Shown: positions 1-55,150 of the stretch, piece by piece
Layout of the letters: each line of letters begins with the position of its first letter
Position numbering within the stretch: position 1 is the stretch's first letter
The notes under the pieces: model-generated
The model's input: only the letters and a program-made list of their open reading frames with translations
The model's database searches: none
Told to the model about the DNA's origin: nothing
Assembly (NCBI RefSeq): GCF_014750655.1
Contig: NZ_JABBXD010000005.1
Coordinates: forward strand, 186,001-250,000
Reading direction: 5' to 3'
DNA length: 64,000 bases
From: Salinimonas profundi
GTDB taxonomy: Bacteria > Pseudomonadota > Gammaproteobacteria > Enterobacterales > Alteromonadaceae
Position numbers and translations under genes: made by a program

Positions 1-297
1 CTGGTTTTTGCATTTTCTCTTTAATAACCATTCAGCTTTTTTGTCTAGGCATCGATTTGCACAAGCATTCCAACAGAACCACCATTTTCCTACTACTTTT
101 CTGCAGACTATACAAATAAATACTGCACGCCAAAAAGTTTCTCTTACTTTAAGAAATTCAAGTTTAGCTGACTATCTACCTCATCTAAAAATATTGACCC
201 AAAGTTCAGTTACTTTTGGCCTCAAGCACTTATAAGTTTATTCCGCTATCGTTCATCTGATTAGCAGAATATTGGGATCTATCAAAAGGAAAATTGA
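1..297. other. left-edge region, no gene supported
   Basis: A/T-rich sequence at the window edge. One frame on the plus strand is open from the edge to a stop at 233-235, so it could be the tail of a gene lying to the left. The translation has no motif I recognise and no ribosome site. A TATAAG hexamer at 230-235 could be the -10 box of the small gene that follows, but no convincing -35 accompanies it. Confidence 0.25.
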
Positions 298-471
298 ATG
301 AGAGAACTTACTTTCGACGAAGCAAATAATGTCTGCGGTGGAATAGTGGCGCTTTATTGGGTAGGAGTAGGTGCAGTATGGGCTTATCGTTCATATAAAA
401 CAGTGCGGTTTGTTTCGCAAGCAATGGCTGGAGACGCCTTGTACGGCGGTGCAAAGTCAATGATTCCATAA
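298..471 (+). CDS. double-glycine-leader microcin/bacteriocin-like peptide precursor
   Basis: A 57-codon gene. Its first 15 residues, MRELTFDEANNVCGG, align position by position with the microcin V (CvaC) leader MRTLTLNELDSVSGG, sharing M1, R2, L4, T5, E8, V12, G14 and G15. This is the signal that C39-peptidase ABC exporters cleave after GG. The predicted mature part is 42 residues: a hydrophobic glycine-rich start (IVALYWVGVGAVWAY) that could span a membrane, a cationic stretch (R31, K34, R37), and a GDALYGGAKSMIP tail. The core has no cysteine. AAGGA at 286-290 lies seven bases before the ATG, and a hairpin terminator starts nine bases after the stop. I infer an exported antimicrobial or signalling peptide. 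The exporter is not in this window. The leader and gene signals are seen directly; activity is inference. Confidence 0.75.
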   Translation: MRELTFDEANNVCGGIVALYWVGVGAVWAYRSYKTVRFVSQAMAGDALYGGAKSMIP

Positions 472-479
472 TTGTACAA

Positions 480-508
480 GCGTACGGCCAAATCCGTACG
501 CGCTTTTT
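480..508 (+). terminator. rho-independent terminator after the GG-leader peptide gene
   Basis: Perfect 8-bp stem GCGTACGG / CCGTACGC (480-487 and 494-501) with a six-base loop, followed by GC and five T at 504-508. It begins nine bases after the small gene's stop, so the peptide appears to be transcribed as its own short unit. It also makes a TTG start at 472 unlikely for the next gene. Confidence 0.7.
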
Positions 509-519
509 GGCGTGTAAAG

Positions 520-822
520 ATGCGTATAAATGAGTGTCACTGTCCGTGCTGCGACAGTCAGGTAAGACTACGAGCAAAATTAAGGCTAATGGTACATGAA
601 ACAATCACATGCCATTGCTGTGAAGCTACGTTAGTCGTTAGTATTTTTTCAGCTGTGCTCGCAACCTGCTTATTAGGTGTACCCGCCTGGCTGTTATTCG
701 ATGAGCTCCTGACAGCTACTGATATCCACAAATATGTGAAGCTCTTTTTAGGCTTCAGCGTGTGTATGTGTGCGGCGCGACTTGGCTTTCCATTCTCCAC
801 TCTTATCCAGGTCAGGCGCTGA
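520..822 (+). CDS. small zinc-ribbon membrane protein (possible immunity partner)
   Basis: A 100-residue protein not assignable to a named family. The N-terminus has paired cysteines (CHCPCC near residues 6-11 and CHCC near 30-33), spaced like a zinc ribbon. Two hydrophobic segments follow (from about LVVSIFSAVLATCLLGVPAW, and about YVKLFLGFSVCMCAARLGF), giving a two-helix membrane protein with a cytosolic metal site. I chose ATG 520 because an upstream TTG at 472 would place the terminator hairpin inside the coding region. The ribosome site is weak. Its place directly after a GG-leader peptide, and its two helices, resemble the small membrane immunity proteins of class II microcins, but that is positional inference. 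It could equally be an unrelated small membrane protein. Confidence 0.5.
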   Translation: MRINECHCPCCDSQVRLRAKLRLMVHETITCHCCEATLVVSIFSAVLATCLLGVPAWLLFDELLTATDIHKYVKLFLGFSVCMCAARLGFPFSTLIQVRR

Positions 823-54079: not shown

Positions 54080-55150
54080 ATGACAACTAAACGTCGCCGC
54101 AGTAAATGGTGGGATCTGCGCACCTGGCACTGGATCAGCTCGGCAATTTGTCTGGCGGGTCTCTTGCTGTTTGCCGTGACAGGTATCACTTTGAATCACG
54201 CTTCGAGTATCGAATCCCAGCCTGTTGTCACCAGCGTGGAGAAAACGCTTCCCGATGCGCTGATCAAGACAGTAAAACGGGCGCGAAACGGTGACACCCT
54301 ACCCCGCGGCTTTAGCCGCTGGATGACGGACAACACCAACGTCGACCCCGGCCTGTTTCGCTTACAATGGAGTGACTATGAGCTCTATGGCAGCCGCGCC
54401 GGACCAGGTGAAAACAGCTGGTTTAGTGTCGATCTGGAAAGCGGCACTGTCTCCTACGAAAGTACTGCGCGGGGAATGGTCGCGTTTTTCAACGATTTAC
54501 ATAAAGGCCGGAACACCGGCTTCTGGTGGAAAATGTTCATAGATGCTTTCAGTATCGCAACATTACTTTTCAGCCTGACCGGACTGTGGTTATTAAAGCG
54601 CTATGCCAGAGGGCGCGCTTCAACCTGGCCTCTGGTTATAGCTGGTGTTGGAATTCCCGCCCTGCTTCTGATTATGAGCACCGCTGCACATGCCGCATCC
54701 GGTAAATTATCAGTTACCACGCCCCGCCAGCAGGTAGCGGAATACCATAATCCCTACCTTGCCATATGGCTGGCGGACGCCAGGCATACAAAGGTGATGA
54801 ATATCAAAGTGATGTATGACGTAGCCATGGACAATGATAAAGGCGAAAAGTGGCTCAAAGATCTGCGTTTGTGGTGGCGACGCAGTGGGCGGTCAACCGC
54901 GCTTCCCGTTGATGGTGTGACTGGCGCAACCCGACCTTCCGGCACAATGTCCATCAGCCTGTCTGGCCACATGCAGGATCTCGCATCCCTTGAAGCAGGC
55001 GAATATTTCATCTTTGTTGAGGCCGCCAGAGAACTGGGTGGCCGGGAACTGGTAAAGCTTCCACTGACGCTACCGCTCACCGCGCCGCTGACGGTAACAC
55101 GTAGCGGTAATCACGAGCTGGGCAATATAACCCTTACTATGGAGCCATAA
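54080..55150 (+). CDS. PepSY-associated membrane protein fused to a DUF2271 domain
   Basis: 356 residues. Residues 1-200 are a PepSY-TM-type membrane protein: DLRTWHWISSAICLAGLLLFAVTGITLNH (cut), a periplasmic PepSY-like part, and DLHKGRNTGFWWKMFIDAF then a second helix LWLLKRY. After a further helix, residues about 210-356 form a DUF2271 domain (PYLAIWLADAR, LRLWWRRSG, TGATRPSGT). PepSY-TM and DUF2271 are often separate neighbours in iron-regulated clusters; here they are fused. Likely involved in periplasmic iron/flavin or reductase handling during iron uptake, by association. DUF4198 follows and the Fur box lies upstream. Confidence 0.75.
   Translation: MTTKRRRSKWWDLRTWHWISSAICLAGLLLFAVTGITLNHASSIESQPVVTSVEKTLPDALIKTVKRARNGDTLPRGFSRWMTDNTNVDPGLFRLQWSDYELYGSRAGPGENSWFSVDLESGTVSYESTARGMVAFFNDLHKGRNTGFWWKMFIDAFSIATLLFSLTGLWLLKRYARGRASTWPLVIAGVGIPALLLIMSTAAHAASGKLSVTTPRQQVAEYHNPYLAIWLADARHTKVMNIKVMYDVAMDNDKGEKWLKDLRLWWRRSGRSTALPVDGVTGATRPSGTMSISLSGHMQDLASLEAGEYFIFVEAARELGGRELVKLPLTLPLTAPLTVTRSGNHELGNITLTMEP

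Follow-up and report, generated by a model that had tools for sequence, protein, structure and literature searches.

The window, a stretch of 64,000 nucleotides (positions 186001–250000 of contig 5) in the 4.07 Mb, 30-contig genome of Salinimonas profundi, contains near its left end two small adjoining genes (Table 1). The first starts with ATG, is preceded by a ribosome site (AAGGA, 286–290) and encodes a precursor of 57 residues, composed of a 15-residue leader ending in a double glycine (GG) and a 42-residue core that contains no cysteine and is cationic. All of this had been proposed in a sequence-only reading of the DNA, as had a terminator after the peptide gene; indeed, a terminator-like hairpin followed by a T run is present there (480–501, −13.7 kcal/mol, z = −2.68). 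Its pairing is kept in 94.6% of the cells of an alignment of seven sequences, that of the window included, and its covariation consists of one double change, a level reached by 80 of 500 shuffles and hence not above them. The second gene encodes a protein of 100 residues with a zinc ribbon and two hydrophobic helices. This gene, also noted in that reading, is real; we place its start at ATG 520 rather than at TTG 472 because the homologues align from there over 100 residues, with an ATG at this position in eight of the nine aligned loci and a GTG in the ninth.

Table 1. Features of the peptide cassette, in coordinates of the window.
Feature	Positions	Strand	Basis
Cassette common to relatives: peptide and zinc-ribbon genes, the hairpin between them and the conserved upstream region	188..822	+	blastn of neighbourhoods
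Conserved upstream region: inverted repeat and ribosome site	188..297	+	Alignment of nine loci
Peptide precursor, 57 aa	298..471	+	ORF, homologues, purifying selection
Leader, 15 residues, MRELTFDEANNVCGG	298..342	+	Invariant residues across six aligned peptide homologues
Core, 42 residues, predicted mature peptide	343..468	+	dN/dS, net charge +3, pI 9.7
Hairpin and T run between both genes: terminator or attenuator	480..508	+	Folding, alignment
Protein of 100 aa (candidate immunity protein): zinc ribbon (CPCC...CHCC) and two hydrophobic helices	520..822	+	Co-occurrence with the peptide, relatives inside exporter clusters

The conserved region upstream of the peptide gene includes an inverted repeat (GCTAT at 245–249 and TTAGC at 261–265, of the form CGCTAA...TTAGCG in most relatives) and may act as a promoter or operator. 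A scan of 188–297 for sigma-70 promoters gave no promoter-like site, the region is not seen in Neiella, and Rfam gave no match over positions 1–1300 of the window. Farther upstream, a gene for a regulator-like protein of 679 residues with an OmpR-type winged helix (PF00486) ends 341 bp before the peptide gene (L003:5918–7957, +; coordinates with an L prefix refer to the stretches examined, window position 188 being L003:8188). We excluded it from the unit: it lies beside the peptide in the close relative G004 and outside the stretch common to the other relatives. Downstream of the cassette, a 71-codon ORF (979–1194, +) has a signal-like beginning and a single hydrophobic stretch, with no confident family. 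One weak PADLOC match to GajB (0.014) was put down to chance.

Taken alone, the GG-leader pattern would be weak evidence for a gene: in its strict form it has two matches in the window and as many in the reversed window, with 0.2 matches per mononucleotide-shuffled window (20 shuffles), and the second match in the window (54106–54294) is not bacteriocin-like. The peptide ORF stands above chance because it is conserved in relatives and under purifying selection. Between the window and G012, the core shows 14.5 synonymous and 2.5 non-synonymous changes (dN/dS 0.04 over 41 of the 42 codons); between G004 and G012, the counts are 15 and 0. The ORF at 298–471 is a real gene under selection. Its core is more conserved than either its leader (dN/dS 0.20 between the window and G012, with the exception of values of 0.77–1.03 in five of the six comparisons with Neiella) or the zinc-ribbon gene (0.25 between the window and G012), for which the pair G012–G031 is an exception, with one synonymous and five non-synonymous changes.

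The leader is conserved in relatives, M1, E3, L4, E8, G14 and G15 being invariant in all six aligned peptides. The earlier claim that it matches the CvaC leader at all key positions was nevertheless overstated. The double glycine, Val at −4 and Leu at −12 agree with the class II microcin leader, for which hydrophobic residues at −4, −7 and −12 are given in the excerpted text of PMC11494933; at −7, where a hydrophobic residue is expected, the window has Ala. This position reads Ala also in G004, Thr in G012, G031 and G025, Met in G030 and Leu in Neiella. An AlphaFold2 model of the peptide, built on a shallow alignment of four sequences, consists of one helix from residue 6 to residue 55 (mean pLDDT 74, pTM 0.39).

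Strong or clear matches to the peptide were found in ten genomes, including its own, with a broken copy in one of them (G065). Searching with a profile of six homologues, we found strong matches in seven of the 59 genomes of the genus and a weak one in G075; in 394 genomes of the order, again in the own genome and G031, clearly in G486 (Neiella marina), G494 and G791 and weakly in G580; and in 369 genomes sampled across the class, in the own genome together with one weak match only. The named carriers are Alteromonas aquimaris, A. indica, Salinimonas chungwhensis, A. lipotrueiana and N. marina, whose peptide is 60% identical to that of the window. The peptide is absent from the plasmids, phages and viral contigs searched, and the zinc-ribbon protein from the plasmids searched. 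Bacteriocin models gave no match to the window peptide itself. A search of the own genome with PF10439 returned sub-threshold matches only, and nine of 14 control genomes also matched; this search is therefore no census of GG peptides.

The zinc-ribbon gene is linked to the peptide gene. Among the 59 genomes of the genus it occurs in the same seven that carry a strong peptide match, and it is the next gene downstream in all ten genomes with a strong or clear peptide, following the second of two GG peptides in G791. For comparison, a strict GG ORF ending at most 150 bp upstream was found for none of 215 large ORFs in the examined stretches, the patterns used around the zinc-ribbon matches being looser than the strict one of this control. 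Of the 14 matches that a zinc-ribbon profile produced in the order sample, six have a GG peptide directly upstream; five of these six are the peptide family itself and four of the five are rows of the profile, so that the association is partly circular, the profile having been built from such loci. Outside the family, one of 15 weak matches (nine from the order sample, five from the class sample and G072, several lacking CxxC pairs) has GG peptides alongside, namely that in G651. In the 369 class-wide genomes, the profile matched the own genome twice and five others weakly, with no GG-pattern ORF in the 3 kb examined for each of those five. The link between the zinc ribbon and GG peptides outside the family is thin. 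A structure model of the zinc-ribbon protein (pLDDT 60, no significant fold match) was left out of our reasoning because of its low confidence, and a sequence search of the PDB gave weak zinc-finger matches only.

In Neiella, a membrane-fusion protein (MFP) gene and a C39 exporter gene are followed by the peptide and the zinc ribbon; in G791 the order is MFP, exporter, two GG peptides and zinc ribbon; and in G651 it is MFP, two GG peptides, zinc ribbon, a 42-codon ORF and exporter. The G651 peptides are unlike that of the window and match PF10439 (7e-5) and PF17508 (MccV, 1e-3), both below the cut-off. G494 carries the peptide and zinc-ribbon genes, with no exporter among the ORFs of the 16 kb examined. 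G580 has an MFP, two GG peptides, a 61-aa membrane-like ORF and an exporter, and no zinc ribbon. In G075 (L058:6580–7322, −), two overlapping peptides with GG/GS leaders, one of them above the TIGR01847 cut-off, are followed by a 126-aa hydrophobic ORF, 136 bp from a tRNA-Arg; this looks like a two-peptide bacteriocin locus, the zinc ribbon being absent there and the exporter lying elsewhere in the genome.

The Neiella cluster has the same gene order as mcbABCI of Moraxella catarrhalis, in which genes for an HlyD-type MFP, a CvaB-like ABC transporter and a GG peptide precede a small gene; according to the excerpted text of PMC2761928, this last gene was shown to encode the immunity factor. The G065 (L033) copy of the peptide gene is inactivated by loss of the start codon, a stop within the core and a frameshift, but the neighbouring zinc-ribbon gene is intact, which is what a retained immunity gene would show. 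The second G025 cassette has a peptide gene without its start and a frameshifted zinc-ribbon gene. That the peptide serves in competition and the zinc-ribbon protein helps in its export or processing, immunity being provided elsewhere, would account for the fact that this protein accompanies GG peptides of differing sequence, as a helper might, and that similar zinc-ribbon proteins exist without a GG peptide. However, GG peptides in G580, with an exporter, and in G075 and G025, with the exporter elsewhere, have other small hydrophobic ORFs in the same slot and no zinc ribbon, and the G065 zinc-ribbon gene has outlived its peptide gene. A helper role is thus improbable, and immunity is our best reading of the zinc-ribbon partner.

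Further GG-leader peptides lie about 10 kb or less from the cassette in relatives (L028:8905–9210, L033:13920–14228, L032:668–931 and L030:6290–6418); three of the four are glycine-rich, and that of L028 has a small hydrophobic ORF after it. Elsewhere in the own genome, near 565.4 kb of contig C2, a 52-aa GG-leader peptide with two core cysteines (L122:1480–1638, +) is followed by a gene for a 69-aa lipoprotein-like product (L122:1691–1900, +) whose end repeats the motif of the peptide core (NAK.A...CG.G.V..VST.G..CK), as though the peptide were paired with a lipoprotein version of itself.

The unit formed by the peptide and its partner had been put at 298–822 by the sequence-only reading. As a unit it holds, but the part shared with relatives is longer and is mobile. 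By blastn, similarity to the window begins at 188 in G012, G031, G030 and G065 and at 180 and 189 in the two G025 copies, and each of the six alignments closes at 822, where the second gene has its stop codon; G004, a close relative, remains similar far past the cassette. Between the other relatives the similarity extends further: G012 and G031 match each other at 96.5% identity along 896 bp, of which 255 bp lie beyond the second gene. These two have no other similarity in the compared stretches, and their exporters are 52% identical in protein sequence; the cassette therefore moves horizontally. The G012 contig has 143 bp before the match, so that its left flank is little informative.

One G025 cassette is flanked by a tRNA-Leu on one side and a decayed fragment of the same tRNA on the other. 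In the own genome, a tRNA-Leu(CAA) lies 11.4 kb before the cassette (C5:174742–174826; L136:6742–6826), with derived, decayed repeats at 174774–174888 and 179955–180190 (L003:1955–2190), and in G031 the shared stretch begins 300 bp after the end of a tRNA-Phe. G004, G025 and G030 have repeats similar to those of the tRNA-Leu within several kb of their cassettes, and in G031 short pieces precede the cassette. The tRNA-Leu region looks like an insertion hot spot. To the left of the window lie an Mrr-type restriction endonuclease-like gene (L003:3355–4119, +) and an NYN/LOTUS-domain gene (L003:4052–4894, +); a stretch resembling this pair lies about 3 kb from the cassette in G030, on the opposite side.

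The cassette might be a passenger in its own genome, having moved in, no longer being produced and now decaying. The tRNA-Leu and its derived repeats would fit such a history, as would the decayed copies in G065 (peptide) and G025 (second cassette) and the failure to find a sigma-70-like promoter. In addition, the window core departs from the five other aligned sequences at two otherwise invariant positions (D46 for G and G50 for D, a swap without effect on composition), and its leader has a Cys at −3. On the other hand, dN/dS between the window and G004 is 0.13 for the core and 0.16 for the zinc-ribbon gene, and the frame, the leader and the hairpin are all intact in the window. We consider decay of this copy very improbable.

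The sequence-only reading had called for a search of the whole genome for a C39-type exporter. We found one C39-peptidase match, a 718-aa ABC exporter on another contig than the peptide, with the catalytic triad C26/H99/D115 intact and preceded by an HlyD-type gene; TolC is also encoded (E = 3e-113). The catalytic Cys and His are present in all eight exporters compared, the Asp pattern missing that of Neiella, which reads HDPA there. Searching with the N-terminal 274 residues, we matched the exporter in 57 of the 59 genomes of the genus. The two without it, G006 and G019, also lack the peptide, an absence that means little because the carriers number just seven.

On contig C10 the exporter belongs to a graspetide-like cluster (L002:5975–10859, −) comprising ATP-grasp, 62-aa GG precursor, LuxR-family, C39 exporter and HlyD genes. 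The precursor, graspetide-like by its context, ends with GEDGGDLPDLLTQ and has GEDGG near its end; the ATP-grasp ligase matches graspetide models at 2e-36, below their cut-offs, and the LuxR-family gene is an HTH gene. ATP-grasp adjoins the exporter in 14 of 20 further loci of the genus, taken from the 56 other genomes that matched. G030 has kept the exporter and a peptide of the window type, with no ATP-grasp or precursor within 3.4 kb after the exporter. None of the seven neighbouring proteins of the window cassette is an ATP-grasp (Pfam), in contrast to graspetide clusters with a C39 exporter, of which the resident exporter is part. As the local cargo of this exporter is graspetide-like and the exporter is on another contig, export of the window peptide, which we infer it to handle, would occur in trans.

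How close, then, is the cassette to known systems? It had been described as of the microcin V type. The likeness stands: the leader obeys the class II rule of 15–18 residues ending in GG or GA, the own genome encodes a C39 exporter, an MFP and TolC, and a small two-helix partner gene adjoins the peptide gene. Known microcin immunity proteins are likewise small, adjoining and membrane-bound, with no common sequence feature (PMC9746304 and PMC10233263, in excerpt). Membership in the strict sense does not follow, because the precursor of 57 residues is too short (75–120 in verified class II microcins; PMC9746304, in excerpt) and the exporter is unlinked in the own genome, although linked in Neiella and G791. 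Moreover, Ala at −7 and the zinc ribbon of the partner set the cassette apart, and its core is cationic and nearly frozen, whereas the available parts of PMC10233263 and PMC9746304 describe most class II microcins as neutral or anionic and their cores as highly variable. Glycine amounts to 11.9% of the core and 12.3% of the precursor, at the lower edge of the 12–26% given for the class in the text seen of PMC11494933.

The Moraxella system differs in having a larger peptide, McbC (77–101 aa), an immunity protein, McbI, of 74 residues with four predicted helices and no zinc ribbon described in the excerpt (PMC2761928), and a linked exporter. The bacteriocins with GG leaders of Gram-positive bacteria (PF10439, TIGR03949 and TIGR01847) resemble the window peptide in leader type and in their short cationic core, and the tandem pairs of peptides in G791, G651 and G075 are also reminiscent of them; the window, however, has a single peptide that matches none of these models, and the peptides of the relatives fall below the cut-offs, except that of G075 for TIGR01847. 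Finally, the zinc-ribbon protein resembles TIGR04104 (CxxC-20-CxxC putative zinc finger) in having two CxxC pairs spaced by about 20 residues, with a hydrophobic region after them. Four of seven aligned zinc-ribbon proteins match this model weakly, and the window protein gave no match up to E = 1. For the relatives in G651, G791 and G494, E-values run from 3.5e-6 to 6e-5 and bit scores from 23 to 27, the best being 27.3 against a cut-off of 45.

Zinc ribbons are frequently regulatory, and the core is the most conserved part of the pair. Both points would suit a peptide exported by the GG route as a signal or self-acting molecule, in biofilm formation, autolysis or density sensing, with the zinc-ribbon protein as its receptor or regulator. 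GG peptides with such other roles do exist: in the excerpts of the respective papers, gonococcal (Neisseria) Nap peptides mediate autolysis (PMC11798529) and cyanobacterial GG proteins act in biofilm (PMC4997328). The cassette, however, is sporadic (7 of 59 genomes) and mobile, its partner is a small two-helix membrane protein adjoining the peptide, and its sequence includes no histidine kinase; a signalling or self-directed role is therefore unlikely. A small hydrophobic helical peptide with a neighbouring gene could also recall an intracellular toxin–antitoxin-like pair, with the zinc-ribbon protein as antitoxin, but the conserved GG leader and the linkage to C39 exporters in Neiella and G791 make this scarcely credible.

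We favour, with a probability of roughly 0.57, a horizontally mobile cassette that encodes a class II microcin-like peptide and a zinc-ribbon immunity protein and relies on an exporter in trans. The proposal of a GG peptide cassette with a plausible immunity partner is thus supported; two outcomes that the sequence-only reading took as counting against it, a genome devoid of a GG-peptide exporter and relatives devoid of the leader, were looked for and did not appear. The C39-peptidase ABC exporter would cut the leader off the precursor, and the core would leave the cell through the exporter, the HlyD-like adaptor and TolC. Once outside, the cationic helix would act on the inner membrane of related competitors, and the zinc-ribbon protein, a membrane protein with two helices, would shield the producer. 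We infer these steps, and with them the orientation of the partner in the membrane. The hairpin between the genes would reduce expression of the partner relative to the peptide. In Alteromonas, a cassette without its own exporter would borrow the resident C39 exporter, whereas in Neiella and G791 exporter and cassette form a single cluster. A wider proposition is possible and must be held tentatively: the zinc-ribbon two-helix proteins may be an unrecognised immunity family for GG peptides, and the near-universal Alteromonas C39 exporter in the graspetide cluster a shared port for interchangeable mobile peptide–immunity cassettes of about 640 bp.

The cassette belongs to a GG-leader, bacteriocin-like kind that is already known; its zinc-ribbon partner is unusual. 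Two surveys of class II microcins (PMC11494933 and PMC9746304) never mention Alteromonas by name in their main text. In the literature covered, outside which most subscription papers lie, we found nothing tying Alteromonas to a class II microcin with a double glycine or to a double-glycine bacteriocin, and nothing on TIGR04104 by name; zinc ribbons and microcin immunity proteins came up together in a single paper, on Treponema peptides. Microcin immunity proteins are described, in the part of PMC10233263 available, as having no conserved sequence feature to search by; a zinc-ribbon membrane protein recurring next to GG peptides would provide such a searchable handle and also a mechanism open to testing. 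A mobile peptide–immunity cassette that relies on a resident exporter would be missed by screens that demand a linked one.
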